This document shows, in pieces, positions 5,680 through 28,327 of a stretch of 64,000 nt of DNA; the stretch's first letter is position 1; each line of letters starts with the position of its first letter. The stretch is from Patiria pectinifera. Taxonomy: Eukaryota > Echinodermata > Asteroidea > Valvatida > Asterinidae. The stretch is taken from assembly GCA_029964075.1 (NCBI GenBank), contig CM057135.1:12364863-12428862 (forward strand). The letters run 5' to 3'. A program made the position numbers and the translations under genes. The notes under the pieces were generated by a model. The model saw only the letters and a program-made list of their open reading frames with translations. It made no database searches and was not told the origin of the DNA.

Positions 5680-5832
5680 ATGATAGCAATATTTGAGTAT
5701 TTGCAGTTTTTGGCTATTATCATCATATCGCTTAATCTATCGTTTTACACCTACGAATACCTTTGCTTTTGTAACAAAGTTGCAAAAGCTACAACAAAAT
5801 TAAATTCGTTTCTAATTAAATGGAGGACCTAA
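5680..5832 (+). CDS. Small single-pass membrane protein (50 aa)
   Basis: An ATG at 5680 opens 50 codons ending TAA 5830-5832. Residues about 5-25 are strongly hydrophobic (EYLQFLAIIIISLNLSFY), so one membrane span is likely, with a basic C-terminus. It overlaps the next ATG (5820) by 13 nt, as is common in compact viral gene blocks. I do not recognise a family. Confidence 0.45.
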   Translation: MIAIFEYLQFLAIIIISLNLSFYTYEYLCFCNKVAKATTKLNSFLIKWRT

Positions 5833-6356
5833 AACTTACTTTAACGAACGAACAAGATCACAACGCAGAACATAAAGATCGTTTGTGCGGTGTCGTAGCA
5901 GCCGGAAACTCTAGAAAGTACTTGGGAAAGGAATACACCGTTAAACATATCGAAGCTCTTGACAGTAAAGAACTCGACAAGCTGTATCATCTGTACGAAA
6001 CTAAATTTGGAAATGAAATTGTTCAAACCGTTGGTAAATACACTTTAAGTCTATTTTCGAGAGTGTTAGCTGTGGTTACACCCGTGCAAGTTTTAGGATA
6101 TAACGTCACTATAGATTCTGAAGAAGAACTCACCAACGACTTGAGTTCTGATCCTATTATAAGCGCGAGTATGGCTGGTATGTTGAGCGACGTTTGTTAC
6201 AAGTACGGAACTTTAATATCACCCCTAGTTGCTACGATTATCACAACAAAACATTTGAAATTTAATAAACCTTATATAATAAATGGAAGATCAGAAAGCA
6301 GCGACGGCAACGCCTGCAGCTCAACCAGCAGAGACAGAAACGCCCCAACCGATTAA
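5820..6356 (+). CDS. Polinton hypothetical protein (178 aa)
   Basis: An open frame from ATG 5820, the first gene of the plus-strand block 5.8-8.2 kb. The N-terminal half is charged and mostly helical. A hydrophobic stretch lies in the middle (about residues 72-95, TLSLFSRVLAVVTPVQVLGY) and another near 130-150. The last 25 residues, low-complexity Ser/Arg/Asp, overlap the following gene by 74 nt and read its DNA in another frame. The natural end may therefore be near 6280 with a small 3' frameshift. Function unknown; a structural or membrane role is likely from context. Confidence 0.6.
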   Translation: MEDLKLTLTNEQDHNAEHKDRLCGVVAAGNSRKYLGKEYTVKHIEALDSKELDKLYHLYETKFGNEIVQTVGKYTLSLFSRVLAVVTPVQVLGYNVTIDSEEELTNDLSSDPIISASMAGMLSDVCYKYGTLISPLVATIITTKHLKFNKPYIINGRSESSDGNACSSTSRDRNAPTD

Positions 6357-6666
6357 AACAACGTCGTCACCGACGGTAACGAGAGTGACCAAGACTAAAA
6401 ATCCTAAACGAATACAGCTGGGTAAAGCTTCAGCCGAGCACAATAGACAGATGAAATTAAAATTAGCAAAAATAGACATAGCATCGGACGAAGCTACGAG
6501 CTCACCAGACTACAACTCTTGGGCGATGTGGGGGGTTATAGCGTCTATAATAGGGGTGGGGCTGCTGGTACTAAAAACTAAGGCAACTGCGCCGGTAATA
6601 CAGCCAGTGCCGGTAGTCACGCAACCCACTACACCCAGCGTCCCCAAAACGCTAGACATGGAATAA
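6283..6666 (+). CDS. Single-span membrane protein with Pro/Thr-rich ends (127 aa)
   Basis: ATG 6283 follows TTATATAATAA, a box like those before other genes of this element. The N-terminal 45 residues are Ala/Thr/Pro-rich and a Lys-rich helix follows. Residues about 80-98 (WAMWGVIASIIGVGLLVL) form a clear membrane span, then a Pro/Val/Thr-rich tail. No family recognised beyond being a typical small Polinton membrane protein. Confidence 0.6.
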   Translation: MEDQKAATATPAAQPAETETPQPIKTTSSPTVTRVTKTKNPKRIQLGKASAEHNRQMKLKLAKIDIASDEATSSPDYNSWAMWGVIASIIGVGLLVLKTKATAPVIQPVPVVTQPTTPSVPKTLDME

Positions 6667-6699
6667 ACCAGCAATTTAAAAATTGTTATATTAAAAACG

Positions 6700-6942
6700 A
6701 TGAGTAACTTTGACACCAACGGAATAGCTAATACGATTTACCACGGAGCCGTCATATCGGGTCTTTCGATGGGATACGCTATGGTAGGAGCTAAACTATT
6801 CAAAATGAAAGTGCCGGATTTAAACAAACTAAGCGTAGAAGATGCGGCTAAATTGACGGGCATTATAAGTGGAGCTCTCACCACGCAAAATTGGTTGGTC
6901 ACCCAGGGTATACTACCGGGCAGTATCATGAAAACGGCATAA
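6700..6942 (+). CDS. Small Polinton membrane protein (80 aa)
   Basis: An intact 80-codon frame behind TATATTAAAAACG. It has two weakly hydrophobic helices (GAVISGLSMGYAMVGAKLF and LTGIISGALTTQNWLVTQG) with a short charged link. I recognise the IxNTIYHGxVISGL opening as recurrent in invertebrate Polintons; function unknown. Spacing to its neighbours is about 20-35 bp, consistent with one transcribed block. Confidence 0.6.
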   Translation: MSNFDTNGIANTIYHGAVISGLSMGYAMVGAKLFKMKVPDLNKLSVEDAAKLTGIISGALTTQNWLVTQGILPGSIMKTA

Positions 6943-6964
6943 TTTAAATAGGTTTATTAAATAA

Positions 6965-8236
6965 ATGGCTGAAGGAGGATTCGACTTTGACCATACCACC
7001 GAATACGAGGATCCACCTGACATTAACTTAGATGATGATGTAACAGAGACCAATCTGGACGACAACTTTGATACTCTTGATAATACCCAACTTTCACCGG
7101 TAGACACAGAAAGCGTCCTCGGCACGGGTACAATAAGCTGTTTATCTATAGAACTAATAAGAGAAGATGTTGATTCATTTTACAAACAAAATAATATAGA
7201 CCCCGCGTTTATCGACCCCAACGATTTTGAAATTGGTAAAGACAGAAATCTATACGTTAAAACATATAAAGGTTGAGAACCATTATCTTATAGACGAGGT
7301 GGTCAAAAAATATATTACAAATTAAGTACCTTACAAAGTAAATATGGTACCGCATTTATTCGCGACACCCTCAAAATCGCTGACTATAAACCAACACTAC
7401 TTGCCAAACTAAAAGATAAACTCGAAAAAGTACAACCCGAGAGTATCCCCATGACAGAACTACCAAGCGTCACCGATGAGGTAACCGAGATTATAGACGA
7501 TTTACAACGCGACACTGGCGCTCAAACAGAAGGATTAAATTACAGAGAACTCCAGGGTTTAGACAAAAGTCTTCAGACGTTGAGAGGTAACCTAGAACTT
7601 AATTTAGCGCGTCTCGCAGAACTAGACCAAGAGATATTTGATGCCGAACATGAATTAGGTGATCATAGGATCAGCGAAGAAGAACGACGAGAGTTAAACG
7701 ATAAATTGAGCGACTTGAACGTTGAAAGATCTGCCAGATTAGAAGCCGCAAAAGCCAACGAACGAGGGCTCAAAAGTCAGATCGCTAGAATCAAAGAAAC
7801 GATTAATAAAACATTATGCGACGACACGACTCTGGCGGAAAAGATCAGAACTCTGTTTAGAGAACAAGGTGTGACCGTAGTGAGTATTTTAGCCGCTTTG
7901 AGTTTAGCCATCAGCACGATAGTGAGTAGTATCGTCGCTAGCGTGAGAGGTGCAGGTGCCCCACCCGCGCCATCGCCAACACCTGCACCAACACCAACAC
8001 CAACACCAAAAGGTGGTATCAAAGAGTGGATTTCAAAACAACTCGCTAATTTTGCATCTGCTCTTCAAAAACTGGGAGTGAGCGCGTTGGGTGCTCTGCC
8101 GGGTATCATAGGCAGCGTACTCAGTTGGATATTTAACGCGCTGAGTAAATCCGTATCGTGGTTGGCCGAACACGTGTGGGCTTCGTTTTTGGGTGTGGGA
8201 GCCTTGGTGTTTGCGTACCTGCAAAAACGATGGTAG
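6965..8236 (+). pseudogene. Large Polinton virion-type protein with one in-frame TGA
   Basis: The frame opens at ATG 6965 with an acidic N-terminus and stops at TGA 7274-7276. It then continues open in the same frame through 7451 to TAG 8234-8236, about 423 codons in all. The TGA follows Lys-Gly where context suggests Trp (TGG). Downstream are long coiled-coil helices (about codons 180-280, LNxNLARLAELDQEIFDAEH), a hydrophobic segment (VVSILAALSLAISTIVSSIV), a low-complexity Pro/Thr repeat (PAPTPTPTPT near 7975-8010) and two C-terminal hydrophobic helices. A minor virion, membrane or tape-measure-like role is plausible but unproven. It ends 25-35 bp before the second hairpin. Confidence 0.6.
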
Positions 8237-8260
8237 TAATAGTTGTAATCAAGTTTAAAC

Positions 8261-8309
8261 AAAAAAAAATAAGCCTTACCACCTTTGTGCTGGTAAGGCT
8301 TTTTTTTTG
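8261..8309. terminator. Hairpin with A/T tracts between convergent genes
   Basis: The arms AAGCCTTACCA (8271-8281) and TGGTAAGGCTT (8291-8301) pair perfectly around a 9-nt loop. An A run (8261-8269) precedes the hairpin and a T run follows, so it resembles a two-way intrinsic terminator. It lies between genes converging from 8236 and about 8300. Confidence 0.6.
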
Positions 8310-8688
8310 TCTTGTGAGATTAGAGTGTGCCTCGTAAGCTAAACTACCCATACCAACGATAGCCAACGTTCCTACCGTCAACGATAATTTTTCGTCTTGG
8401 TGAGTTTGTAGTTTCGTGGGCTCTTGGGTTAAAACTGTAGGTGAGGGTGCTGGTGCTGGTGCTGGCGATGGCGCTGGTGTTGGTGCTGGTGCAGGTGTTG
8501 GTGATACAACATTGTTCGTCATAGGCTCTGGGGGTGTTGGTGGCGCGACGTCAACGGTGTCATCAAAAGAGTCGTCTGGTTGAGGTTGTGCGTTTAAATC
8601 TGGCACCAAACCAGTGTTCATACTCTGGGTAGCGAAGATTTTGAAGATTGTTGTTATAGCCGTCGTGCGTTCCAACCCTCAAGTTCAT
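8276..8688 (-). pseudogene. Pro/Ala-rich membrane protein of the Polinton, frameshifted
   Basis: ATG 8686-8688 begins 12 nt after the stop of the upstream minus-strand gene. The first about 20 codons are in one frame and the rest (from about 8630) in another, so a 1-nt slip near 8620-8640 is likely. The main part is acidic, then a long Pro/Ala/Thr/Ser repeat (8430-8520), then a hydrophobic helix (LTVGTLAIVGMGSLAYEA). The open frame runs on through the hairpin into 8133, which is unlikely to be real; a different length of the A tract would give a stop at 8276-8278. The Pro-rich tract mirrors that of the convergent gene. Confidence 0.5.
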
Positions 8689-8699
8689 ATCCGATGGAA

Positions 8700-9710
8700 T
8701 TAATACAACCCCGATTTTACGACAAAATTTAAAGGCGTTCTGGCATACTGCAAAGAGTCTTGAAATTGATCGATACTCGTTTCCATGTCGTCTGCTGCAT
8801 TGATGATATCTTCAACGATGACGTTAAATTGTCTCTGAGCGTCTAATCCGGTTCCCGGTGATAATACGCTCGTTTTTGTTTGAGCCTGCGCACCGAGTAA
8901 AACGTACTCGGGTATAAAATCTAACCAAGCCTTTTTTACCGATTCATTTTGTTCGATAAAGGCTACGGTGTAATCGCTGTAACGCCCCGAACCCTTGGGT
9001 GGATCGTCCAAACCAAACCCCATTTTAGTTCCACCCATCATATTTTTACGATACTGAAAATACTCGTGATTAAGGTCGGTTGTATCATAATCGTTTCCGG
9101 GTACGGGTACGTAAGACGTGTCCCAGTAATAAGCTGTACCTAAACTGTTAGAATTTGTGTCTCTCGTCTGTTGAAAAGACTTGTTTTGATCTATTCCAAA
9201 CAACAAACAGGTATCGGTAAAAGCTCTGAGATTATAATTGTTGTCTAGAGCATTAAATGCGTCATCTCCCAGTAAAGGAGCGGCAATGTCGTACAGGATC
9301 TTTCTAACCGTAAAATATAAATGAAAGTTAAAGATGGCCCAAACGTAACGGTTGCTCGCGTTTCAAAGATCGAATCCAATACCGCAGCCCGTAGTAGCGC
9401 AGTAGATCGCAAAATTTAACTGATTTTGATAAAACGACATGGGGTGTGATTTCCAACGATCTACATCCTCATCCGTTTTGATGCGAAGCAATTTATAGTC
9501 CGAGGTTAAGTCGGGAAACATGGTTAAAAACCCGTTGGTATTATTAACTATGACCTCCAGTTCACTGGGTTTAGTGCTGTTTAAAAACTTTGCTTGGGGT
9601 GCAGCTTGATGTTTTAGCTCGTTTGCCTTGGCTACATTTTGATTTACTTGTCTCGTTACCTGATCGGCTATCGATTGTATCTGCTTTTTTAACGACTTAA
9701 AATCACTCAT
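8700..9710 (-). pseudogene. Polinton structural protein (about 336 codons) with one in-frame TGA
   Basis: The minus-strand frame opens at ATG 9710 and stops at TGA 9363-9365. It then continues in the same frame to TAA 8700-8702. The N-terminus is helical (KSLKKQIQSIADQVTRQVNQNV). The middle has FAIYCATTGCGIG and, beyond the stop, YVWAIFNFHLYFTVRK. The related copy at 27,821 reads through this site with Leu (TTA), so the TGA is a lesion rather than a normal end. I do not recognise a fold; its place in the virion gene block and its conservation in a second element suggest a minor capsid or core protein. A 400-bp part (9087-9486), TGA included, is duplicated at 13,961-14,360. Confidence 0.65.
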
Positions 9711-9751
9711 TATTTTAGTTTCAGTTTTAATATAAAAAGACTTTAAAATGA
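9711..9751. promoter_or_regulatory. Divergent promoter conserved between two Polinton copies
   Basis: The 41-bp gap between two divergent ATGs holds AATATAAAAAGACTTTAAAA. The equivalent gap at 27,781-27,820 in the second element, in inverted orientation, keeps the same AT box and Pu/Py pattern although the flanking genes have diverged. This supports promoter function. Confidence 0.5.
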
Positions 9752-10432
9752 ATGCATTCGTTTCACTTGTTTCAAAATGAGCAGACGTTTAAATTAGAAG
9801 ACGTTGTAGATAATTTAAACGGTCAAAAATCTATACGCGTAAAAAGGGTGTTGTTTAACGCCGGATATTTTAATATTTCCAGCGCCACGGAGATTGATTG
9901 GTTTACGCAAATAGATGGGAGACCCGCGTTTACCACAGATAAACCTCCCCTCATACCCGAGGAGTTTCTTTCAGATGTACACATAACAACGCCGGATAGA
10001 GATTTTATAGAGCGATTGTTACCCGATATACCATACCACTATTTATTTAACGATGAAAATGTGTTACAAAAAACTATAAACGATCTTATAAAAGCGTACG
10101 AAGACGATAGACTAGAATCCGTTTTAGAATCAAACAAAAGAAAAAGAGCTATTTTAGCTGAACGGCGAGGGTTGATTTTAGCCGCCATGAATTCAGAAAT
10201 ACCAAAAACTGAATTAGAACTTAATACGCTTCAATCTTTAGTAAGAATATTATTTGTTAGAGAAAGAAAAATCTTTGAAGGTGAGGAATTGGCTTTAAAG
10301 TTTATTGAAGGAGAAATGGGTGCGAGCGAGTTGAGAGATAGTAGAGAAGCAGGGGTGATTATAAGAGGAAGTCTTATCGTGACGGGATGTCTTATCGTGA
10401 TGATTTCGATTTTATTCCTCCGAGTCATTTAG
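9752..10432 (+). CDS. Polinton protein with C-terminal membrane anchor (226 aa)
   Basis: The start at ATG 9752 is supported by the second copy, which shares the same opening (MHSFHLFQNxQTFKLEDV). The N-terminal 80 residues look beta-rich. A highly charged helical region follows (about residues 110-190, ESNKRKRAILAERRG). The end is a single membrane span (IIRGSLIVTGCLIVMISILFL). It overlaps the next gene by 46 nt, with a 12-bp internal repeat (GTCTTATCGTGA) at the overlap. No lesion seen. Function unknown; probably structural. Confidence 0.65.
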   Translation: MHSFHLFQNEQTFKLEDVVDNLNGQKSIRVKRVLFNAGYFNISSATEIDWFTQIDGRPAFTTDKPPLIPEEFLSDVHITTPDRDFIERLLPDIPYHYLFNDENVLQKTINDLIKAYEDDRLESVLESNKRKRAILAERRGLILAAMNSEIPKTELELNTLQSLVRILFVRERKIFEGEELALKFIEGEMGASELRDSREAGVIIRGSLIVTGCLIVMISILFLRVI

Positions 10433-10935
10433 AGCCGTTACCACTCGGAGTCACCGGTTCGGTCATCATACCGCCGGAGTGGTACGACGTCGATTGGTTC
10501 AATTTCATTTTAAATTCTATACCCGGGGTAAGTTTTCAAATATTTAGAGAATCTAAAAAGGTGACGTTGGTGATAACCGACGTAAATCTCAAATTGCGCT
10601 TGAACAGAGAAGTATCTCGATTACTCAATTTACCCAAAGGAAGACTGGTACCCAAAATGGTGTACACGGGGTATTACGACGTTAATCCGTTTAAATTTTT
10701 GTTTATTCGCTGCCCGCAATTAAGTACGAGTGAAAACTTTTTTAATGGTCGTCCTTCTGACATCTTAAAAATCGTACCCGTGGGTACGCGCAAACCCGAG
10801 CCCGATAGAGTCGGGGATTTCAAAAAACTTAAAAACGGTATAATCGACAAACTGACATTTTCTATCAGCGGTGAAAAAGGACAGGTATTCAACAATAAGG
10901 GTGAGGGTATCATTATCGAGTTGGAGATCTTTTAA
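10387..10935 (+). CDS. Polinton beta-rich protein (182 aa), possible minor capsid
   Basis: An intact frame with a mostly beta-strand composition: PLGVTGSVIIPPEWYDVDWFN near the start, VTLVITDVNLKLRL in the middle and KLTFSISGEKGQVF at the end. I recognise the opening as recurrent in invertebrate Polintons. The size and beta content would suit a single jelly-roll penton-like protein, but I cannot show that. It starts inside the end of the previous gene. Confidence 0.6.
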   Translation: MSYRDDFDFIPPSHLEPLPLGVTGSVIIPPEWYDVDWFNFILNSIPGVSFQIFRESKKVTLVITDVNLKLRLNREVSRLLNLPKGRLVPKMVYTGYYDVNPFKFLFIRCPQLSTSENFFNGRPSDILKIVPVGTRKPEPDRVGDFKKLKNGIIDKLTFSISGEKGQVFNNKGEGIIIELEIF

Positions 10936-10961
10936 TTTTAAAATTTTTTTATATAAAAAAC

Positions 10962-11609
10962 ATGAGTAATAATGTATTATACCCCGATATTTCTGGAGAT
11001 GTACTCCGATTAAATAGTAACGAAGAAACAAAAGTGTACAGACTTAAAAAGATTGAAGAGATTCGATCTTTAATCTTAAAAGAGAGAGACCACCGAGAGC
11101 GCACTTATAAAAAAATTAAGAGAATGATCGACACTATTAATTACGTAGAGATAGGATTAGAAGGATTGGGGGCTATAGCGGGGGCTGTCAGTATTCCCGC
11201 TCTCTTGGGTGTTATATCAGCCCCCGTTGGATTGGTGCTAGAAGGAACCTTTATAGGCGCTTTTGGTGTAGATATTCTGCTTAGAATCGCGTCTAGGCGA
11301 TTATCCACCAAGCTGAAAAAGCACGACCAGATTAAAATATTAGCAGACTCCAAACTTAACACGATTGAAGAATACGTGTCTCAAGCCATCAACGACGGAG
11401 ATAAATCGCACGAAGAGTTCTTACTGATTACGAGAGAGCTCGCAAAATTTAACGAGCTTAAGCAAAAAATAAGAACAAAGACCAGCACAATGCTTCAAAA
11501 AATTAAAAACGATACGGACTTTGGAAAAGAAGTTAAAAAACGGGTAGACGAATGGCTGGCAAAAGAAAAAAAAATCTCTTATCGAAAAACTTACAAGTTC
11601 AAATTCTAG
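10962..11609 (+). CDS. Polinton helical membrane protein (215 aa)
   Basis: It starts at ATG 10962 behind TATATAAAAAAC. Residues 20-60 are a charged helix. Residues about 62-105 are hydrophobic and Gly-rich (GLGAIAGAVSIPALLGVISA). The rest is a long charged coiled-coil region (LADSKLNTIEEYVSQAINDGD). I recognise this type (a helix, a Gly-rich membrane patch, then SKLNxIExxISQAL and SHEEF) as very common near Polintons in invertebrate genomes; its role is unknown to me. No lesion seen. Confidence 0.7.
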   Translation: MSNNVLYPDISGDVLRLNSNEETKVYRLKKIEEIRSLILKERDHRERTYKKIKRMIDTINYVEIGLEGLGAIAGAVSIPALLGVISAPVGLVLEGTFIGAFGVDILLRIASRRLSTKLKKHDQIKILADSKLNTIEEYVSQAINDGDKSHEEFLLITRELAKFNELKQKIRTKTSTMLQKIKNDTDFGKEVKKRVDEWLAKEKKISYRKTYKFKF

Positions 11610-13829: not shown

Positions 13830-14493
13830 GTTCATATATTTGCAAGTCAAGGTTGAAGTAGACTTGTATGAGTTGTATTTTTTTTTTTAACACAAGTTCA
13901 AAAATAAAAAATGCATCTTAAAAAATTGAGCCCGGTTTTGGCCGATTCCGAGACTGAGATATAATCGTTTCCGGGTACGGGTACGTAAGACGTGTCCCAG
14001 TAATAAGCTGTACCTAAACTGTTAGAATTTGTGTCTCTCGTCTGTTGAAAAGACTTGTTTTGATCTATTCCAAACAACAAACAGGTATCGGTAAAAGCTC
14101 TGAGATTATAATTGTTGTCTAGAGCATTAAATGCGTCATCTCCCAGTAAAGGAGCGGCAATGTCGTACAGGATCTTTCTAACCGTAAAATATAAATGAAA
14201 GTTAAAGATGGCCCAAACGTAACGGTTGCTCGCGTTTCAAAGATCGAATCCAATACCGCAGCCCGTAGTAGCGCAGTAGATCGCAAAATTTAACTGATTT
14301 TGATAAAACGACATGGGGTGTGATTTCCAACGATCTACATCCTCATCCGTTTTGATGCGAGTTCATATATTTGCAAGTCAAGGTTGAAGTAGACTTGTAT
14401 GAGTTGTATTTTTTTTTTTAACACAAGTTCAAAAATAAAAAATACATCTTAAAAAATTGAGCCCGGTTTTGGCCGATTCCGAGACTGAGATAT
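13830..14493. repeat. 133-bp direct duplication flanking a 400-bp copy of Polinton DNA
   Basis: Copy A (13830-13962) and copy B (14361-14493) are the same 133 bp except for one G/A difference near the ATGCAT/ATACAT site. Between them, 13961-14360 repeats 9087-9486, with no difference seen on reading both. The insert is a piece of the minus-strand structural gene, in the same orientation as the source and including its TGA. The structure looks like a break repaired with a templated insert and a long target duplication, or an assembly artefact. Confidence 0.9.
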
Positions 14494-14579: not shown

Positions 14580-15490
14580 CCAGTGGGTGGGGCTATGGGC
14601 GAGAACACTGGAGAGAGGGGGGCAGATAATGGGATTTGTCGCCGTACCCTCCCCCTTCTTCTACTGCTGGGGCTGTGTCGGCTGACATCAGCAGAACGGC
14701 ATATTCCACCAGGTTCCCCAGTCGTTCCCGAGTGGGACAGGCTATGTCGCAGGATAGATCCAGTTCCGCCCCAGAAAGGTTGGTTAAATTGATGGTATTG
14801 GATGTGACTTTTCGTTGTTGATGAGAAATCCCAGACTTCCTGCAATTTCCATTGTGGTGGTGACTGCTTGACATGCCTGACGTTCGGACATGCCCGCAAT
14901 CAACCGGTCGTCCAGATAAACGAAGATCAACATGCTTCTTTGTCTGAGGACGGCTGCCACAACCTTCGCTTACCGCGTGAAAACCCTTGGTGCGGTTGCG
15001 AGCCCCGAATGGGTACGAATGGTTACGTGGAGGTAGCCGTCCTTTAGATCTAAAGTCGCCGCCCATGACTGAATGGGTAGGGAATCCAACACCGTGCGAA
15101 GTGTTTCCATCCGGAATCGTTTTGGTAGGATAAACCTGTGGAGTGGACGAAGATTCAGGATGGGACGCCACTCTCCGGGGTCCTTCTTTGGAGTTAAAAA
15201 TAACTTGGAGAAGAACCCTATGTTGGACTCTTCCTGAGGAACTATTCGTATTGCGCGTTTCTGGAGGAGCGATACAATTTAGCACCCACCTGTCGGAACC
15301 AAAACGGGCCAAAGTCTCTGAGAAAAACTGCGAAAAACGAGCCCGAGATCGGGGGCCGAAACGGTGAGTCTGTCATTTATGCCAAGGTCCTCCTCTAAAA
15401 CCCCTTCCAGAGCGAGGGGTAAAGGAGAAACAGCTGTAGTGGTTGTGGTTGTGGCTGCAGCAGCTTGGCTTGTTCGGGGACGAAAAGGCC
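14580..15490 (-). pseudogene. DIRS-like retrotransposon reverse transcriptase remnant
   Basis: Read in changing minus-strand frames, this shows the DIRS-type RT series: a lead-in GFFSKLFLTPKKD and GEWRPILNLRPLHRFI, then METLRTVLDSL, SWAATLDLKDGYLHV, GLATAPRVFTR, MLIFVYLDDRLIAGMS, and a tail near LVEYAVLLMSADTAPA. The YLDD box is present. A segment between the YLHV and GLATAPRVF boxes is missing and there are several frameshifts, so it is dead. The 239-aa ORF at 14593-15312 is mainly a wrong-frame shadow of this gene. No YR domain or terminal repeats found. Confidence 0.8.
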
Positions 15491-15790: not shown

Positions 15791-16649
15791 AGATGATTTG
15801 TTTCCGCCCCAAGCAGGCCGAGATCCTTTCACCTCTGATGACTTTCGGAGGTTTATCTTTTCGGTGGACTCAATCCGTTTGCACCATTGTAGCGAAAATA
15901 GAGATTCGTGTAAACTGTTCCATGCACAGCTGTAAACACTCATCCATACATCGGAAAGCCATTTCAGTGGACTCTGGGGAAACATGAGAGTCAGCTTCAC
16001 AAGAACAGACCAAAATTCGGAAAGCAGCTGTGAAAGCAACTGACTTTCAACCCAAAACGTAAGGCTGTATCCACCTTTGCCAGGGTATCTTCCAATTTGC
16101 CTGTGCTTTAATACTGTCTTTGGGCCGCCATTTTTTATGTGCCGCCAAAGCTCCGATGCGGTCACGGCAGTTTCACTGATAAAAAAGTACGCCCTCTTTT
16201 GGCGAGTTATAGTTAGTGGTAAAGTCACGTGACGACGCTTCACAACAGAGCGCGATGCATAATGCATGCCCGCGTGAAGATCCTTTCTTTGCGTTGGTGG
16301 ATTTAAATACCCCGCGGATAATGTAAAATATGATTGGTTTGAGGACATGAATATGCAAAAGCTACCAAATAAGGCTTCGATAAGCATCAATGAAGCTATG
16401 TGCAATCGACTCTCCCCATCCTTTGTGCTCAATTTCTGACTAGCATGCTTTTACGTACGCGACATGTACGCGTTATTCGCGTTCGGTATGATTTTGTAGT
16501 TTCATGTTGTCATTTCAGCTACGAATAAAGCATCATTTTTTAAATTGAAAAGCAGTTTTGTGAATTATTTTGGTCGATATATGAATTAATGAGTAATCTT
16601 TGTTCACATTAATGTGAACGACAGCACTTGGACAAGTCGCTTTCGTGAA
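15791..16649. other. No gene supported; possible CpG-containing promoter region
   Basis: A 257-aa minus-strand ORF (15659-16432) spans the SINE-like repeat and non-repetitive sequence, with no recognisable domain. 16,100-16,300 contains GGCCGCCAT, CACGTGACGACG and other CpGs, which could be promoter sequence. Confidence 0.3.
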
Positions 16650-16796
16650 ATTTCAGTCAAACTTTAGGGTACATAAACAGGAGTCCGTCGAGAACCGCCG
16701 CCATGACCGCCATGTCTGCATGCGCGTCACGGCCGAGACAGTATTTGGGTGGCGGTGTTTGGCACGATTTGAGGGTTTCCGGCGGGAATCTCTAAG
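16650..16796 (+). other. Candidate first exon with splice donor
   Basis: A GC-richer block containing CCGCCGCCATGACCGCCATG ends with CTAAG|GTGAGT, a strong donor with GT at 16797. The open reading from the ATG at about 16702 is only about 30 codons. It could be a 5' UTR exon of a plus-strand gene or non-coding RNA; no following exon was identified. Confidence 0.3.
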
Positions 16797-18074
16797 GTGA
16801 GTACACAGGTTATGTATCTTTTGTACTAGGAAGCAATTTTTGTAATCTTACGTTTTGAAATGCCATGGAGGAAGGCAAGCATAGGCTACCCACTCAAGTT
16901 TTTTCAACGCCTGTACACGGACATATTATCGTACATAAAACAGTCGTAGGGTAGGCGCATTGACTGATCCCCGAATGCACGTATTTTGAAACTACACAAC
17001 GACTCATGTATGTATGAACATGTCACAGTTATACATTATACTGCCCAGAAAAAAAATCGTAACCAACTGAAACATTTGCTATCAAAGAGTCAATGCAAAT
17101 ATATTCAATACCATCACTAGTCTGATTTTTCAAAAGTAACTGCACAATTTTCCATATAGTGATTTACTAAAAGTGGTACATTTTATTTAGGCCTTGCCCT
17201 AGGCCAACATTAAAATACATCATACTACTAGACCCTATTTTAGATAGACCTGGACTCAGACTCGACGTAAAGACTCAGACTTTGAGTATAAAGATTTCAA
17301 CTCGGAGACTTGACCTGCATAAAGCCGAAGTGGGACTTAATTCACATAACAAATCACTTATTAAATATCTCTTTCAACAATATCATTACATACATTGTGT
17401 AGCAATTTTGAAAATCAATATCAAAAACATGAACCCCATCGTCTTCACTCAATATTGGGTAAATCATGCAAGCTTGATAGTGTTCGGTACGATATTCATT
17501 TCCAAACACTGGCTTGCCTGCATGTACATGTACATGTATTTATTAGAGAGTGGCTGTGAAAATATTGGAAGCATTTATATACTGTGAGATTTTCCAGTAC
17601 AGTAGTAGGCCTACCTCCAAATTTATTTTCAATATTAAACATGACTTGGACGCGACTCTGACTCGGACTCACATTCGCCCCACATGACTTGGCACTCAGA
17701 CTCGGGAGCAATGACTCTGACTCGATTCTTGATGATTTAAATACAAGTCTGATTTGACGTGACAATTTTTGACATGCACACTTGGCGTACAACGCCATAC
17801 GTGCTGAAATACATCTACATGTATGTACAAAACAAAACACGTTAACATATACAGTACCGGTAGTACATGTGTGGAGCCTACATTTCTTCTGATGTGTTTT
17901 GTCGTGTCGCGTGTACATTTTGTACATGCACATGTATGGATGCATACATGTTTTGATGCATATACATGTACATGTTATGTACATGTACATGCACATAATA
18001 CATTAAGATGTGGCAAATTATAACATTATGGCAAATCCCCCCTGCCTTGCGCAAAGGTAATAGTTTTAATAACA
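16797..18074. repeat. Simple and short-period repeats, no gene
   Basis: 17,230-17,760 holds scattered GACTC/CAGACTCG-type short repeats, and 17,500-17,530 and 17,930-18,000 hold ACATGTACATGTA tracts. ORFs here are driven by these repeats. Confidence 0.5.
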
Positions 18075-18841
18075 TTAAACCAGTCCATGTAAAAATAAAC
18101 CTACCCCAGTTACACAGTAATTACTTTTGGCAAGGTCAGGCGTTAACTGTAATAAATTAACTAACTTTGTTGGCATAGACGATGGTTGGACTACTCTAGT
18201 AACTACTTCTATTTGTAGTTTCCTTGTTGTGGTTTCATATTTTGGTACATGCAGCTTTCTTCCTATTTCTGGCGTGGTGGCGACATGATGGCGGCGCATG
18301 ATGGCCATGAGTTTGGCAAGTTCTCCCCGCATTCCCTGGACTACCCTGCCGGTACGGTTGAACTCCGAGTGTATTAGTTCCCCGCCTTGTTCGTTCAACA
18401 GACCAAAGCCCACTCTGAATCTTTGTAACTGTTCTACGGCATAGTCCTCCAGCAGGTGCAGTTTGGGTGTTATTTGGGCTGGGATCAGTCGCCTGTATGC
18501 TGCCATCAAGTCCCGGATGCATGTATATGTTGAAACAGGGTCGACATAAAATATTTGTACTGTTATAATTCGGGGGGGGGGGGGGTCTGCAGTGGGAAAG
18601 GGTTCACTACAGTTACAACATTAAGATATGTTGAATGCTGCATATCTTTGTATGTGTTTTTATTTTTCTATTTCAAGTCAAAACAATTTTGTTTGAATTA
18701 TGTACATACCAATGCGATAAATTTGATCTTGTGTCACTGCAGATGTGTGGTTTATACCCTTGTGAACATCGGCAAACTTGAAGAAAAGCTCCTGGAAGTT
18801 TACTCTAATTTGAGCAGCTTCACGTCGCAGTCCGTCATGTG
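18075..18841 (-). CDS. RAG1L: RAG1-like exons 11-12: C-terminal core with candidate catalytic Glu
   Basis: Exon 11 (18841-18710) reads GLRREAAQIRVNFQELFFKF and ends ATTG|GTATGT. Exon 12 (from 18499) continues in phase with YRRLIPAQITPKLHLLEDYA and GFGLLNEQGGELIHSEFNR, then a basic tail to the stop near 18075. The Glu in NEQGGE lies 21 residues after the Tyr of LHLLEDY, close to the 20-residue spacing between a zinc His and the catalytic Glu in RAG1. The second zinc His is Tyr here. A donor from exon 9 (GAG T|GTTTAA) would fit the phase of exon 11 but is weak. Confidence 0.65.
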
Positions 18842-20862
18842 CTGCCAAGGGGATGTCGTCAGACCAATTTTTGTAATAAATCAAGAGACAGTAAACTAAT
18901 GGCAAGTTGACTCTGTAACGGTGATGATTAATTAAATGATTGTTACATGGTATACAGTTTTTTTAAGGCAACACTAAGGGACAGTCAACAAAAATGTACC
19001 ATGTCCTTGTCGATGAGCAAGCAAAAATCAATTCCAAGAAATTTCCAGATATTGTAAGATATTCGGTTGCAGAAAAAAAAATCCTTGATGCATTATTGAA
19101 AACAAACGATTACATACCGGACCTAACAAACTACTCAGGAAAAATTAATCAGCAACCAACACTTCGTGACAAATATTTCTGTAAGAAAACACGTATATGA
19201 TAAGTCTCATAAAAAAAACAAAGAAAAGTACATGTAAATCAAAACAGTCCAAGACTGTTTTAAATTTGAGTAAAATAAAATACTTGTTTCAACATTAAGA
19301 TTGAAAGGCTAATGTAAAAATGTTTTTTTTTTAAACATCATTTAAGTACTCGCAAGGTTTCATTCCCTGAACAAGCAAAGTTATTTCGCAAAGAGTATTC
19401 AGGGCTCTCTAATATTGAAGAACACATATGTGACATGATCAAGGGGAATGAGTCACATGTCGACCCTGGTCAAAAAATGAGTTCTATATACAGTGTTAAA
19501 GAGGGTAATCAGAGCTTTCATAAACTGAAAACCCCATGTTGATATGACATTTTGTTCCGAGGTTACGTAAAATTATGCAAATGACGACGAAAAACAGAGT
19601 TCTGAGAAAAACGCCTTTTAAGTTTCTGTTTATATTTCAACAATTTCACAACACTGAAAAAACAAGTTACATGACTTAACTCCATAGCAACGGTAACTTT
19701 GTTAAGTCCGATTACCTTTAAACTTGGCCAGATGGCAGTGGTAAGTTTGTAAAATTACATGATATGAAAAAAAATGTTATTGTGACATTGAAAAAAAATA
19801 TTTATATTTTAAGGATTTTCCCGAAAATTGGGAAAAACCAGGAAAAAACGTGCTTTTTTTTTAATTCAAACTGTAAAACTTCAATTAAAAAATTACATCA
19901 AATTGGCGGTTTTACCCACTCTGGAATGTTTATAGATTTTATTTACAGCAAAATAAAACAATAAGACATAAATTACATTGCCATGACCTTTGACCTAAAA
20001 ATGTCCAAATGTACAAGAAAATCGGGGGAAAACGTGTTTTGTCCCCATTTTGCGTAAAATATCTGAACCAACCTGGTCCGATTACCTTCAAACTTTAAAA
20101 AACAGATGAATGTTAGACCAAAAGTTATTGTGATGTAGAAACAGTATTTTGTAACCTTTGAAGCCACTAGAAAATTTAAGGATAAAAACACCCTTTTTTT
20201 CGAACTTGAAAAATTTAAATTTAATACCGTGAATTGATGAATTGACCAGTTTTACCTACTATTGGATGTATTATTGCTTTAATCTAAGATAAAATACAAT
20301 TTCGAGTAATTCTCATTACAAAGCCATGACCTTTTTGGCCAATTTACGAGAAAATCAGCGAAAAGCGTGTGTTTTTCCCCCATCTGTAAAACATCTACTT
20401 AAACCTTATAACACATTCTTGACGACATAAACTACAATTCAAGCTTCTTAAGCATGACATTTTTTAGCAATAAGAGTTGTAATTTCATTGTCAATTATTC
20501 AGATTCAAATTCAACATTGCACACAATAGTGTGGGTGACATTTGCAGCTGTAACTCAATTCCATAATAAGTGAACTTTTTGAATCTATTTTATAACAAAT
20601 CCTTCTGAAATTGAGCTACAATAGCAAAGGTGACCAACAAAAATAATACTACCCATAATGTCCATTTTGTCATTCCTCTTCTATATGTAGCACCATAAGT
20701 ATACACATGCTTAAAAAAAAATACAAAATAAAAAAGATTCAACATTCCTTTTGAAAGTAAAATTTGAAGTTTTCAGCAATTTAACTTCAAGCACACAAGT
20801 AACCAAGCGGCAAGTCCAGGTAGCATGTCCTGTTTAGAAACCTTCCAATGCCTGCATCAGCC
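18842..20862. other. Intron or intergenic sequence within the RAG1-like locus
   Basis: AT-rich; short ORFs only, none with a recognisable motif. A loose repeat of GACCTTTGACC/GGGGAAAACGTG-like segments (19,800-20,400) suggests old duplications. Confidence 0.4.
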
Positions 20863-21154
20863 TCATTTCTCATCAGCTGGCGGCATTTCCTCTATAAGCC
20901 GGCGCTGTGCCGGTGGGAGTTCCTCAAGCGTATCATCATCTGGACGGGGGCAAACTAGATCCCTCAAATCAGGCTTGACGTATGATCTGATTCTTTCGTA
21001 GAGGTAGCCTTTACGAGCTGCTGGGAGTCCGGGTGGTCTTTGTATTGCTGGAAGCCTAGATTTGTCAGGCATAGACTTCAGGATGTAGTGACGTGTCTCC
21101 GGTCCTGTCGCCTTCTCCCTCACATACACTGCACCAGGATCATCTGATGTTATC
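20863..21154 (-). CDS. RAG1L: RAG1-like exon 10 candidate with its own stop
   Basis: After acceptor CTGTAG an open frame reads ITSDDPGAVYVREKATGPET, stays open for about 96 codons and ends TGA 20863-20865. The join from exon 9 (donor AT|GTAATT) is in phase. If used, it would end the protein before the KLHLLED/NEQGGE exons and drop the last catalytic acid. It may be an alternative 3' exon, or a piece of an unrelated gene. Confidence 0.45.
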
Positions 21155-22637
21155 CTACAGGATAAAATAAAGAAAGCAAAACATTACCAACAAGTTACCA
21201 GCTGAAGGAATTACATTAAACACTCGCAGCTGTCAATAATTGTATCTGATTTGAACATCTGTTGTCTTGAGGCAACATGCATACAATGCAGTGCATCTAA
21301 GGTAGTCAGGCTTTTGTCGACCATCTCAAGGGGAACTGCAGTAAGTGCTTTTATAATGGAGGGCTGTTAAACAAAACAAAAAAGGAAATGGTGATTTACT
21401 ATTTCCTTGCATTTTTTTTTCCAGCCGTGACATGCCTGCGTAGCATATGCTGCTCTTGTATTTTGTTTACAAAAATGTTGTGTACCAAGTTTAAGAATAT
21501 GCAACTTTATGTTTACCTCGCAGCACTTGTGGACATGATTTCCGACAAAAGCCTTGCCATGATAAGCCTGTCTCTGCACTCGATGTTGCTGAAGGACGAT
21601 CTCCAGAGAGCTTGCAACAGGTCCAGTGGCAAATGGAAGTTGCACTGTTTCAGCTTCTCTCTCCTGTTGAAAATGACACGGCATGGTAATGTAAAAACTA
21701 GACATTTCCGTTAAAAATAATTAAGTGAAGGGTATGATTTCTATAATGCTGTTATAAATGTAATTACCAATTTCGATATTTCATCGCGGAGTTTGAAGGC
21801 CTTGTTTGCTATTTCGAGAAACGCGTCGTCCATATTTGCCGCAGCAGTACGTAGAACGTGCAAAGGGAGCTCATCCTCTACATCACTGAGCTCGGCACGC
21901 TTCTCCTCCAGGTCTTTCTGGATCTGCTGTTGGCGCCTGCTTTCGTTGTTGATGCGGGATTCGAAGTTGTTCCCCTGCTCCGTGTCATCCGCAGCGACAC
22001 GGAGCTGGAACAACTGCACGTCGATCCCGTGACATGCACTTTCGAAGGCATCGAATAACTTCTTGTATACGCCAAGCGATATGTGAAGTGTTGGCAGGGC
22101 GACCTATATGTGATTAGAAAAAAAGGTTGATTATTCATCAAACAGTTCAATGTTCCAAGTATATTCTCTTACAAAAATCCTATTTAGCTATGCAAGAACT
22201 TACATGGCTGATCTCAACAGGCATAAGTGGTCGATGGACGATGCTGTTTGAGACATCCTTTGCTCTTTGCTGGAGCCCTCCATCTTGTACAAAGCGTTGG
22301 TAATTGTCCTCGATGGTTTGCATTGTACGTGAGGGATATGCCCCTCTCTCGGATCGAGGCTCCTGCATTTGGGCTTTGGTAGCTGTGCAATACAAGCAGC
22401 AGTAGCGAGCTGCAAGATATAAATGTTGGCGTTATAATTTCGAATAATGTGAAGTTTTTGTATTCCACAGATTTGCTTCTGACAAGCAATGGAAATGAAC
22501 AACCACATCACACCTCAAATCTGGAAGTGATGAATGCCTTCAACATTCAAGCATCTGGTGAGTTCATCATACAATTTATATCTTTGGTAATAAAATATGG
22601 GCTATATTACATCTTGATGTCTCATGTGAAACCTTAC

Positions 22638-23145
22638 CATTGCATCCACATATGCCATATAACTTGGTCAGTAACTCGTAGTCGCCGAAGCAAAACAAAC
22701 GAATCGACTCCTCTCTAGAAATTGGGGGGAAAAAATAAAAAAATATTAAAATAGTTATTGTTATATGTACATGTATGTGTGGCGGATGTTGGCACTTGGC
22801 AGGGACCACAACCTGAATATGATGCGGCTGTGTATGTTTCTATAACTCTTATCTTCTTTTTTTATGCCACCATTTATATAGAAAGTAAAACCTGCTTACT
22901 GCCACTTCGCAGATCCCAGCTTCGCGATTTGTTGGAAGATTGGTGGAAGGACCCGTAGGATGTTTGCAAGAGAATCCTTCGCTTCGAAGCATGCAAACAC
23001 CACCGTGCTACACAGGGAGTTTGGATGTTCGATGTTTGCAATCTGGAAGGCCATCTTGAACGAAGAACCGCCCTTGTCCCCTCCCACCTTCACCCATACC
23101 TCATCTTCAGGAATAACTCCTTGATGCCAAGTCAAGGTGTCATTT
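22638..23145 (-). CDS. RAG1L: RAG1-like exons 4-5: first two candidate catalytic Asp residues
   Basis: Exon 4 (23145-22900) carries VWVKVGGDKGGSSFKMAFQ and NSLCSTVVFACFEAKDS. Exon 5 (22714-22638) carries RLFCFGDYELLTKLYG. The Asp in GGDKGG and the Asp in FGDYEL are the best candidates for the first two metal-binding acids, judged from their order in the RAG1/Transib core. The phases join cleanly (carry 2, then carry 1). No stop or frameshift in this part. Confidence 0.7.
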
Positions 23146-24072
23146 CTTTGGAAAGAGAAGTTAAAAGTATTACTCGGATACACGTACATGTAATATTTTA
23201 TCATGAAAGACTAAAGTGTCTGGCATAAATGTGCAGAGTTATTTGTAAACTCTCACCTTTGGTGTCGAGCCAAGTAATCTAATACCATCTCTGTGAGGTC
23301 TCCAACAAATGCAAATGGCACAGATCTAGTTGTGAAACCCTTAATCCTCTCAGCTTTTTCGCTGTTGAAAACAAGGTCAGTCATCTCGCCTTGAAGGTAA
23401 TCCTTGAGCAGCAGTTTCTGTTGCGTCCTCAATGCTCGCTCAGATGGGATGTTGTTCTTGTCGCTCATGTATCTGTCATTTTTAAAGCAAACTTCCAATA
23501 TTTGAATTGCAATCACCACAACTGAATTTAAAGTTGTCAATTGAAAAGCACCACCATCCCTAATTCATATTTTTGATTATATTGAACAACAAGACTAATA
23601 CTTCACCTTCTTAACTTCCTCAGCTGATTCCATGCAAGTTTGCAGTCTCGCATCATTATGAGCGACTCTTCTGTTGTCAATTGACGGCTGTGTTTGCCTG
23701 CTTCAGGAGATGTAGTAGATGGTTTCTCAGACATAACTTGTCGCCGTATGTATGCAGGCTGTTAACAAAGAAATGAACCTGAATTACGATATGTTCTGAA
23801 ATGTACTTAAATTATGCATTCAATAGCCATAATTTTAGAGCTGCTTGTGATTTTAACATGTTTATTTATGTAAAGACAGTAATAAATTTTTTTAATGTAC
23901 AGCTTTAGAAATTTAAAGTATTCCCGATTTCCAGAGAAATGCCATTTTCTTTTTTAAAAATAAATGATAGTGAGAAATGGTTGTTGTGAGTTTTACTATC
24001 CATTGTATAGAAGTATTTTAATTGGTAGACATTAATGTAAACACCTGATTTGTTGTCAAAACAAAGTCTTAC

Positions 24073-25125
24073 CCGACCACCAGTTTTGATAGCTGCTACA
24101 TTATTGTCGCGTTTCAGCTTCAGCCAAATCCACTTGTCAGCTACATCCTCCACAATAGGGGGTATAGGGTCTCCATGGTGATACTGATTAGCCAAGTCTT
24201 GGAGAATTTTGGCTGCTGAACTTATTTTTTGCCTCTCTGTGTCTGCTTCTTGTTTTGATGGCGATTTTGCAGCTCGAACTATTTTGAATTTGGGAGTTTG
24301 TTGATGGGTTGGCTCACATGCGTGACTGATGATCCGTTCCAATTTCCCAATTGTTTGACACTTGCAGCAAGTGACCAGCACGTTGTCTAGCTGTACAGTT
24401 AATACGCGTGGACTTCTTGTGATTTGCCCATAACTGATCATGTTATTACATACTGGGCACTTCACAGATGGGCTCTTCGAATGTTAGAAATATTCTGTGA
24501 GACAGACTGCACAAAAATTGTGCTCGCAAGGTGTTTGCACACTGGGTTGGCTTAAGATGCACTGGCATATTGCGCAGGCAAAAATACTCCCCTCTCCCCT
24601 GTCATTTAGCAAGTCCAAACTTGTGGGCACTTGTACGCTAGGCCTACTTGATACTCCGTCCAAATGCTCAAAAATGTTGATATCTGTGTAGCTGAATGGG
24701 GATAGTGTCGCTTGCACCGTTTCACGAGAAGCTCCTGAAGTATACAACCGTCTTATTTTGCGGCCTCTGGCTCTACCCCCTTTCCCCTGTTTAGTAGCAA
24801 GCTCACACACAAAGCATTCACCTGTTCGTTTGTGGGGAGGCCACTCGGATTGTATTTTCTGGTTCACGAGCAATGTGTCGACATCGATATCCCGGGTGCC
24901 TCCAGTAAAGTGTCTGATGTTTCTTGCACACCTCTCACACAGGAAGGCTGGATGCTGGTCGGGTCTATCGTTCCACGTACTGACTCCAAATACATGCGCT
25001 ATTTCCTTGCGAGCACTGATGCAGGAAAGTGGTTTTCGTTTCTGTTTTACTACTCTCGGATGAAGCCTTTCGGTACAAATTCTACAGATTTTCCCCAGCG
25101 ATATTTCATGAAATCGGAAACTCAT
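24073..25125 (-). CDS. RAG1L: RAG1-like exon 1: zinc dimerisation region, RING and second zinc motif
   Basis: From ATG 25123-25125: CRIC near residue 14, an FLCERC knuckle near 75, then WPPHKRTGECFVCE, the order seen in the RAG1 zinc-binding region. A RING of the C3HC4 kind follows (CAICQCILSQ...CEHNFCAVC). Then come TAA (24484-24486) and, in the same frame, VKCPVCNNMI and a CCKCQTIGKLERIISHAC zinc motif. The exon ends TGGTCGG|GTAAGA. In vertebrate RAG1 this region has ubiquitin-ligase activity and helps dimerise; here that is inference. The single stop in an otherwise open 351-codon exon suggests a recent mutation or error. Confidence 0.8.
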
Positions 25126-25849
25126 AATGAAGTAAATGACAAATGAGGGTTAACTGTTTTATTTTTCATAAACCGAACCCTCCAATACATATGTACATGT
25201 ATGTCAACAAATTTGAGTAGCGCGCAAAAGTCGCTAGGCCACCTGGTACCCGCGCGCCAGTTTGTATGTACAAGTGGCATGCTAAACCGTGAACCAGCGA
25301 TCCAGCAGTCCAAATTCTCCGCGAAGTGCGGGAAATGAAGCTTTACTTTCAGCGTCTGTATTTCAATTAAAACTGTCGACCCAACAAAGAACAAGTATGT
25401 ATTGTTTGGTTTATTTATATATTTATCAAATAAGCATTAAGATTTCTTGTGAAAATGTGTTTTTACTTTTCTGTAAGGATTTTTGAAAGTCCTCGATGCT
25501 TGAACAAAATTCACCGCGCACGGCAAAAACTTAAGCGAAAATTCCCCGAAATGAACAATTGGATGTAAATTATAGCCCCTTTTTCATTCATTTCTTAAAG
25601 AAAACATCACTCCAAGTTGGTGTCTGTCATTAATTTTTGTAACGGGTATCCTTAAAGTGTCTAATTTTGACAATTATTGGGACGAAACATATACGCCTTT
25701 TCTCGGTACATGTAAGGCGCCATGTTGTGTGACGTCACAGGCATCATAATCCATCATTGGAGTTAACAAAACCCGAACCAACACATTACAGACCCTTTTT
25801 TTACGTGCGCGCTATGCAATGTGGAACTGCCGTGCGGTCCGTACAAACG
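25126..25849. other. Upstream region of the RAG1-like gene, no gene seen
   Basis: It holds ACATATGTACATGTATGT near 25,190 and a CpG-containing patch with GTGACGTCACAGG (a CRE-like palindrome) near 25,730. It could include the RAG1-like promoter; not shown. Confidence 0.35.
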
Positions 25850-26801
25850 TTATCTATAGGGAACGCCGAGAACGTTTGTCCCCGGCACCGGGACTCGGAC
25901 GGGGCGGTTCGGCGTTTGAAAGACTGCCGTTATCCTGCCCGTCTGTGGTTGTTCTTCTGCCGGTATGTTGAGTATTCGGACCATATCTTTCATGACTGTC
26001 CGAAATCGGAGGTCAGCCGCTGAAAGGGGGATGACGTTAGCCGATTCTTTGCTGGAAGAATGATCATCACCGGATAACGGGTCGCTGCCTATCTGGGCCG
26101 CGTTGGGGCCGTGCCCGGGGACGCGGGTGGTCTGTCCGAACACGATGCATGGACCCCGAGACGGTCGGAAACTTCGGCCGACGTCGGAGTTGCAGTCCGA
26201 GAAATGTTCCGATAGGCAAATCGACAATTCATCCCTGCGTTTCCGGGACGTGGGTTCACGCGGGGGAGGAGTCGATAAATTAACAGGATGGTGGCGATAG
26301 TGCCGGACGATGGGGGACCAGAGACACCAGCGTAGCTGACAATTCCTGAAACCCTCGGAGCAATAGCGCTTTCGTGCTACCGTATTGCCAGCCGAATATT
26401 TCTCGGCACTAGGCCCCGAGGACAGAGGCCTAGCAGGCATGTCTTTTGGGGCCGATTTGGCAGATATACTTGCTCGTTTAGTCTTAGTAGTAGCTGGAGG
26501 CCTACCAGGCACAGCTCTACCTCTACTCTTGGCTGCAGTGCTGGACAGCGGCCTATCAGGCACCGCTCCGTACCAAATTACCACCGGGAGAATGGCTGCG
26601 CAGCCACGCTGAGACTCCATTCCAATTATCGGAAGCCCATCCTTCGCATATCTCGCACGGGTGAGCCCGTGAACAAACCCTACACTTGGGGCATAAATCA
26701 TGCGCATCCTTCCTGGATCGCGGTTTAATAATTCTACACTTTGTGCAAGTAACAACATTTGGCGGGGTGAGACCACGCCGCGTGCTACTTGCGTCCGCCA
26801 T
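25850..26801 (-). pseudogene. DIRS-like ORF1 (gag-type) remnant
   Basis: From ATG 26799-26801 a short frame has a Cys-rich module: CTKCRIIKP, then HDLCPKCRVCSRAHPCEICE and WASDNW, a pattern I associate with gag-like ORF1 of DIRS retrotransposons. The reading then shifts frame near 26,600 to a long basic Ser/Pro/Arg-rich part (RGRAVPGRPPATTKTKR) and an end with RFRTVMKDMVRILNIPAEE. The 373-aa ORF listed over this region joins unrelated upstream codons to it. No RT found adjacent. Confidence 0.5.
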
Positions 26802-27129
26802 CTTGAAAAATACACGAAAACGAGAAACGTTTGCAAAAAGTTAACTCGGAACACTGAATTTAATAACAGAACTCGGTAGTAAACCAACAGTAAGTTTAAA
26901 GGAGAATAAACACTTCTAGAGCTAGCAAAAATCGTATATTGAGAGAGCTTCAATAGAATACGACTACACAAGATCAGCGCTAGAAGAAAAGAGGACGATT
27001 TGGCATCATGGGTATCGGGTATTGGCCCAGAGGGCGCTGTGGTTGACGTAAAATCTAGCGGGTATAGCCTACGGCCTATAAGGAATAATGCATATGTAGG
27101 AATTAGAAGGTAAGAGAGGGCCCGAAGTG

Positions 27130-27780
27130 GACATCTAAATTATCACCCGTCACTATAAGACTTCCTCCTATTATCGCTCCGCTTCTCTGCTATCTCTCAA
27201 CTTACTCAACTCGTTCGTACCCATTTCTCCTTCAATAAACTTTAAAGCCAGTTCCTCACTTTTAAATATTTTTCTTTCTCTAAGAAATAATACTCTTTTA
27301 AATATTGAAGCGTTAAAGTTCTAATTCAGTTTTTGCTGAAAACATTACGGCTAAAATTAGCCCTCGTCGTTCAGCTAAAAGCCCTCTTTTTCTTTTATTT
27401 GATTCTAAAACAAATTCTATTCTATCGTCTTCGTACGCTTTTATAAGATCGTTAATAGTTTTGTGTAAAACATTTTCGTCGTTAAATATTTAGTCGTATG
27501 GTATATCAGGTAACAGTCGCTCTATAAAATCTATATCCGGCGTTCTTATGTGTACATCTGAAAGAAACTCCGCGGGTATGACTTGAGGTTCATCTGCAGT
27601 AAACGCGGGTCTCGCGTCTATTTGCGTAAACCAATCGACCTCCGTTGCGCTGGAAATATTAAACTATCCGACGTTAAACAACACCCTTTTTACGCGTACA
27701 GATTTTTGACCGTTTAGATTATCTACGACGTCTTCTAATTTAAACGTCTGCACATTTTGAAACAAGTGAAACGAATGCAT
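27130..27780 (-). pseudogene. Second-copy homologue of the 9752 Polinton gene, degraded
   Basis: Read on the minus strand from ATG 27778-27780, it aligns over its whole length with the gene at 9752-10432 but has several stops (for example in the DNA near 27,490 and 27,660) and small indels. It is divergent from the structural gene at 27,821, in the same arrangement as the first copy but inverted. It is clearly older or less constrained than the copy at 9.7 kb. Confidence 0.85.
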
Positions 27781-27820
27781 TTATTTTAAAGTCCTTTTAT
27801 ATTGAAACTGAGACTAAATA
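27781..27820. promoter_or_regulatory. Divergent promoter of the second Polinton fragment
   Basis: TTTTAAAGTCCTTTTATATT is almost the reverse complement of the gap at 9711-9751. Conservation between two diverged elements supports a real regulatory site. Confidence 0.5.
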
Positions 27821-28327
27821 ATGAGTGATTTTATGTTGAAAAAAAAGAAGATGCAATCTTTAGCTGATAAGATAATAAGACAAGTGAATCAAAATGTGGT
27901 TAAGGCAACCAGACAAGCGCATCAAGCTGCAACCCCTGCGCCAGTAAAGAGATTAGACAGACCTGTACTCACTGGCGAACTCGAGATTTCGCTAAACGAT
28001 ACCAACGGGTTTTTGGCCTCGTTTCCCGACTTAATCGCGGACTATAAATTACATCACCTCAATACCAACGATGCTTTAATTCGTTGGAAAATAGACCCTA
28101 TGTCTTTTTATCAAAATCAGTTAAACTTTGCGATCTATTGCGCTGCTACGGGGTGTGGTGTTGGAATCGATATTTTAAACTCGAACAACAGTTACGTTTG
28201 GGCCGTCTATAAATTTCACCTGTATTTTACAGTGAGGATATTAAACGAAATGGCCGTAGCACTACCAGGAGAAGACGCGTTTGACGCTCTAGACAACAAC
28301 TATAATCAAGGATGTTACAACCGATAA
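27821..28327 (+). pseudogene. Truncated homologue of the Polinton structural gene at 8700-9710
   Basis: 168 codons, open from ATG 27821. The first about 165 codons match the N-terminal half of the 8700-9710 gene (KIIRQVNQNV, LISLNDTNGFL-like, FAIYCAATGCGVG, YVWAVYKFHLYFTV). At the site where the first copy has TGA this copy has Leu. Homology stops near 28,316, where a repetitive sequence begins, so the 3' half is gone. Confidence 0.8.

Follow-up and report, generated by a model that had tools for sequence, protein, structure and literature searches.

Chapaev transposons carrying an N-terminal 'Chapa' domain of the RAG1 type, followed in two subgroups by a RING, were described by Kapitonov and Koonin in 2015 (PMC4411706); in that paper, the Chapaev core is only distantly related to that of Transib and RAG1. 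DUF1280 has been equated with the Chapaev transposases, in one clade with RAG1 (PMC3985635), and the wider group has CA..TG termini and target site duplications (TSDs) of 2-5 bp (PMC12730594). Transib (HzTransib) is without a RAG1-type N-terminal region, as stated in PMC7204232 and PMC4411706, and Aplysia N-RAG-TP is described as wholly RAG1 N-terminal-like sequence (PMC8355894). Here, we analyse 64,000 nucleotides of the sea star Patiria pectinifera (contig CM057135.1, positions 12,364,863 to 12,428,862; hereafter the window), in which positions 16163-25834 (9,672 bp) are, in all likelihood, a DNA transposon of the cut-and-paste type that belongs to the Chapaev lineage and is by now very probably inactive; its transposase gene is on the minus strand. 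The copy is new; Chapaevs with a RAG1-like layout were already described in PMC4411706, the sole paper found, among those listed by the literature searches, with such an architecture in Chapaev. No paper linking Chapaev, the nonamer and RAG1 was found.

A preliminary description had taken the gene for an invertebrate RAG1-like gene (RAG1L). This identity does not hold for the core. Residues 375-550 of the window protein match PF06918 (DUF1280) at 73.8 bits, where the cut-off is 25 (E 2e-20); Pfam reports no other core family, and PF06918 is present in 8/8 proteins from the first protein search. RAG1 and lancelet RAG1L (ProtoRAG), in contrast, have PF12940 as their core. No RAG1 model, PF12940 included, was found on the window protein in Pfam at E≤10; the control RAG1, P0095, matches PF12940 at 1222.5 bits. 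With filters off, the vertebrate RAG1 profile reports the N-terminal domain alone and no core domain on the window protein, and a profile of the same alignment scores 309 bits on lancelet RAG1L. The proposed profile match to RAG1 was obtained for the N-terminal part (residues 40-276) but not for the core, and RAG1L membership was rejected on the core. By its sequence, the core is of the DUF1280 type and neither RAG1 nor RAG1L.

In its predicted fold, the core is of a distant RAG1/Transib type. The structure used is the prediction for the homologue P0002, not for the window protein, and its core gives 25 Foldseek matches at E≤0.001 (19 RAG1, 1 lancelet RAGL and 5 HzTransib chains). The family core profile reaches RAG1 (31.1 bits, E 7.9e-07) and lancelet RAG1L (22.8 bits, E 2.6e-04) and finds no Transib chain at E≤10, and the full-length family aligns with RAG1 at an HHalign probability of 99.2% (E 1.8e-19 for one comparison). 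In the profile alignment, the second catalytic Asp and the CxxC stand opposite RAG1's own, and HHalign places the first Asp opposite the RAG1 SCDGMGD region. The Glu of NEQGGE stands opposite the Glu of RAG1 GNES. The window family shares with RAG1 and lancelet RAG1L the predicted core fold, the D, D, E residues and the CxxC motif.

The N-terminal zinc region and the RING are, as judged from sequence comparison, homologous to those of RAG1, and this holds with the RING excluded as well. In these comparisons, which cover RAG1 only, both parts are shared with vertebrate RAG1. On residues 40-276 of the window protein, a profile built from eight vertebrate RAG1s scores 43.7 bits (E 7.6e-11, with scaling to the PDB set), and the family profile finds in the PDB both full-length RAG1 (family positions 5-266, RAG1 101-398, 85.5 bits) and the 137-residue RAG1 chain 21wb, the latter at family positions 5-102, before the RING (E 1.6e-10). 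The RING itself is a PF00097 match in Pfam. The explanation that the likeness is confined to the RING or due to chance was rejected, since the pre-RING region alone is aligned with RAG1, profile to profile, at an HHalign probability of 97.6% (E 4.3e-12 for one comparison). The vertebrate pre-RING profile gives 24.5 bits (E 2.1e-4) on the window pre-RING piece; the family pre-RING profile places 6/10 RAG1 pieces over the inclusion threshold (best 41.8 bits) and 4/10, all from ray-finned fish, under it, and its best score on 1,000 shuffled pieces is 10.4 bits. On these matches, the motifs CRIC, FLCERC and WPPH...CFVC align with RAG1 zinc motifs, and the pre-RING zinc region corresponds, on this alignment evidence, to the 'Chapa' domain of the literature. 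Pfam gives no PF12560 (RAG1 importin binding) on the window protein, an absence that speaks against N-terminal homology; the domain appears in 1/7 relatives tested (P0013), at 21.4 bits under a cut-off of 23.3. The N-terminal model of P0011 (mean predicted local distance difference test score 40.2) is too poor to use.

Chapaevs, by their description in PMC4411706, resemble the window protein in zinc domain, RING and distant core, the window core being of the DUF1280 type; the window copy carries the stop codon within its RING that is described below. Unlike Transib (HzTransib), the window protein possesses a RAG1-type N-terminal region. N-RAG-TP likewise has such a region in a transposon, but whereas it is described as N-terminal sequence only (PMC8355894), its counterpart in the window is an exon 1 that continues into a DDE core.

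The proposed ends of the element, which were absent from the preliminary description, come from a scan for inverted ends. The left terminal inverted repeat (TIR), CACGGCAGTTTCAC (16163-16176, plus strand), and the right one, CACGGCAGTTCCAC (25821-25834, minus strand), are 13/14 identical, with the consensus CACGGCAGTT[T/C]CAC, so that the termini read CAC...GTG and are of the CA...TG type. They are bordered by the TSD CGGT at 16159-16162 and 25835-25838, which is of 4 bp and not 5 because the next outer bases differ. A strict criterion (CAC start, at least 13/14 identity and an exact 4-bp TSD) yields 1 pair in the window and 0 in 300 shuffles. With two mismatches or fewer allowed, the repeat has no further match in the window, the ends are not among the 25 longest of the 62 inverted pairs listed by the repeat search, and the flanks joined across the empty site give no telling open reading frame (ORF). 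RAGL and Transib transposons differ in having a 5-bp TSD, if the proposed ends hold, and RAGL transposons in having a convergent RAG2-like (kelch) gene; no Pfam match, to RAG2L or otherwise, was found at E≤0.1 in three ORFs near the left end, which do not cover all ORFs of the element. Near that end, 16700-16805 (plus strand) is GC-rich and has ATGs followed by a good donor (aag|gtgagt). A second, convergent gene might begin here, but additional exons were not made out.

The transposase gene is a single intron-rich gene running from 25125 to 18075, with 11 exons and 1,099 codons in a single frame in the spliced model, and GT...AG borders at 8/8 of introns 1-8. In tblastn, two Asterias amurensis proteins recover the same exons, and the eight proteins of the first search hit these exons and nothing else in the window at E≤0.01. 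The multi-exon structure of the preliminary description is upheld, and all the motifs named there lie within 18075-25125 on the minus strand, including the opening of exon 2 at GGR|P; its numbering of exons to 12 gives way to a count of 11, in which the borders of the last three are uncertain.

All exons are on the minus strand and are given by model and tblastn, supplemented for exon 1 by the RAG1 profiles and for exons 4 to 8 by alignment. Exon 1 (24073-25125) contains the RAG1-type zinc region, the RING and the following zinc motif, and ends in GGR; exon 2 (23607-23758) begins with the P of GGR|P and is followed by exon 3 (23257-23472). At the exon 1 end, (G/A)GR is found in 7/7 sequences, followed by P in 6/7. 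A comparison of the GGRP region with the RAG1-type nonamer-binding domain gave HHalign probabilities of 0.6% and 0.3%. Exon 4 (22900-23145) carries GGDKGG with the first catalytic Asp (codon 23076-23078), exon 5 (22638-22714) FGDYEL with the second (22681-22683), and exon 6 (22204-22409) the CxxC zinc motif (codons 22396-22398 and 22387-22389). Exon 7 (21768-22103) encodes PTLHISLG and a long helical insertion, whose helices are seen in the predicted structure of P0002, and exon 8 (21517-21663) YHGKAFVGNH. Relatives depart from exon 9 (21215-21363) after about VDKSL, leaving its 3' part uncertain. The 5' edges are uncertain in exon 10 (18710-18912), where homology begins at SDDIPL (18863), and in exon 11 (18075-18586), where it begins at TCIRDL (18524). 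Exon 11 also carries the stop codon, the zinc His (18456-18458), the Tyr that replaces the second His (18441-18443) and the catalytic Glu of NEQGGE (18378-18380), these residues being placed by alignment. Within intron 9, 20863-21154 (minus strand) is a possible alternative last exon, with a strong acceptor, a phase that fits exon 9 and a terminal stop; its GC content is 51%, against 32% for the remainder of the intron, and for its product neither Pfam nor NCBIfam gives a family, the best match in the PDB having E 0.82.

Among full-length relatives, the best are P0001 and P0002, uncharacterized proteins of A. amurensis with 44-45% identity over window residues 1-1036. They have the same order of parts over their full length, with D, D and E present; unlike the window copy, they are without the stop and keep both His of the H-x4-H, so that both zinc sites are present. 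Further relatives, themselves N-terminal pieces, show identities of 54% (P0011), 50% (P0012), 41% (P0010) and 31% (P0013). A Patiria miniata piece is 49% identical and freshwater-sponge proteins 30-36%; weaker matches come from Caenorhabditis remanei and a pelagophyte alga.

The window copy retains Asp 497 (GGDKGG), Asp 567 (FGDYEL), Cys 586, Cys 589, His 972 and Glu 998. However, an in-frame TAA at codon 214 (24484-24486, minus strand) falls in exon 1 within the RING loop, so that the N-terminal zinc/RING architecture, called full in the preliminary description, is homologous to that of RAG1 but interrupted. In the Chapaev-type C(2)C / H(3-4)H pattern between the second D and the E, CxxC is kept, but position 977, which is the second zinc His in 5/5 aligned relatives, is Tyr. 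Relatives pass from exon 9 directly to SDDIPL and from exon 10 directly to the CIRD block. At the exon starts that they predict there is no AG in introns 9 and 10, the nearest AGs being 32 and 35 nt upstream; since these would leave the frame open with added residues, the two acceptors are a matter of doubt and not a proven lesion. By itself, the stop might reflect an error of sequencing or a polymorphism. Because of the stop in the RING, the Tyr for a zinc His and the two doubtful acceptors, the copy is, on its sequence, very probably inactive.

Several other explanations of the locus have to be weighed. The gene could derive from a Chapaev transposase that was domesticated and is now a host gene in use in the animal, for which the eleven exons, the 1,099 codons open but for one stop that may not be real, and the retained D, D and E can be cited. 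Recognisable TIRs with a TSD suggest instead a mobile insertion, and the replaced zinc ligand and the doubtful acceptors of introns 9 and 10 also argue against domestication, which we consider quite improbable. An invertebrate RAG1L, either within a RAGL transposon or domesticated, would account for the likeness in fold and catalytic residues, but DUF1280 as the sole core family, the silence on the core of a RAG1 profile that readily detects lancelet RAG1L, the TSD of 4 bp rather than 5 bp, if the ends hold, and the lack of a match to RAG2L among three ORFs examined close to the left end make this very unlikely. Finally, two neighbours might have been mixed, an N-terminal-only element of the N-RAG-TP type beside an unrelated DUF1280 transposase. 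The description of N-RAG-TP (PMC8355894) provides a precedent and exon 1 is, by itself, open over a long stretch, yet in both Asterias proteins a single chain spans N-terminal half and core and is colinear with the exons of the window, and the sponge protein P0003 likewise joins the RING region to the core, which renders such a mixture exceedingly unlikely.

A Chapaev transposon is the reading that we prefer, and the following points weigh against it. The strict criterion for TIR and TSD was fixed after the pair had been seen. A looser scan gives 22 pairs, where ten shuffles give 3-12, and is not specific alone because the shuffles also yield pairs; several of the 22 stem from an inverted duplication (14.1-14.4 and 28.0-28.3 kb). 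The inverted repeat is only 14 bp long. The window pre-RING part alone, in a single-sequence PDB search, finds no RAG1 chain at E≤10. The Chapaev label is drawn from the Pfam match together with published descriptions. The usual TSD of Chapaev is 4 bp, a length not given in the passages of PMC3630058, PMC9976928, PMC6004678 and PMC4298943; PMC12730594 gives 2-5 bp for the wider group.

In intact form, such a protein would, by analogy with related transposases, bind to the CAC ends and excise the element through its RNase H-fold DDE site (D, D, E); insertion into target DNA would involve a 4-bp stagger. The zinc/RING part might add dimerisation, ubiquitin-ligase or regulatory functions, as in RAG1.

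The value of this copy lies in its use as a RAG1 outgroup that keeps the N-terminal half and has proposed ends, rather than in being a RAG1L. It bears on whether the N-terminal half of RAG1 is ancestral (PMC4411706) or was gained by fusion with a separate N-terminal transposon (PMC8355894). Exon 1 ends exactly at GGR, where P0010, P0011 and P0012 read TGGR and P0013 TGGT, and these four predicted proteins all end no more than about 65 residues past that point. A RAG1-like half contained in one long exon ending at GGR could explain reports of N-terminal-only elements such as N-RAG-TP (PMC8355894). We tentatively suggest that the RAG1 layout (zinc region, RING, GGRP and RAG1-fold DDE core) may have been present in the common ancestor of Chapaev and Transib/RAG, N-RAG-TP elements being the long first exon of such Chapaevs, with no later fusion of N-RAG-TP and Transib needed; it is a possibility that we rate just short of even. 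That Chapa, RING and core were already fused in the ancestor had been put forward before (PMC4411706); the GGRP and N-RAG-TP parts are new additions to that proposal. The locus also illustrates that motifs read by eye can make a Chapaev gene pass for a RAG1L.

With respect to the surroundings, reverse-transcriptase-like pieces, read by eye, lie just left of the element (14784-15278, minus strand), and a 429-aa ORF with no Pfam match just right of it (25850-27139, minus strand). The Chapaev element may be inside a retroelement. A run of ORFs occupies 568-11609, which we take to be of the Polinton/adintovirus type; 2149-2577 (plus strand) matches Pox_A32 (E 1.3e-8), and three other tested ORFs of the run have no Pfam match. 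Pieces of its genes recur at 13898-14370 (minus strand) and 27818-28327 (plus strand), flanking the Chapaev element in inverted orientation. The window has 0 Rfam matches at gathering thresholds and 0 ARAGORN genes. A reverse transcriptase ORF is found at 39471-40361 (minus strand; RVT_1, E 7.2e-31), and 51568-52554 (plus strand) matches DUF4371 (E 8.3e-8), which PMC3985635 counts among the hAT-type families. The region 56601-59114 (minus strand), of which 56604-57506 is without a Pfam match, is similar to it by eye.

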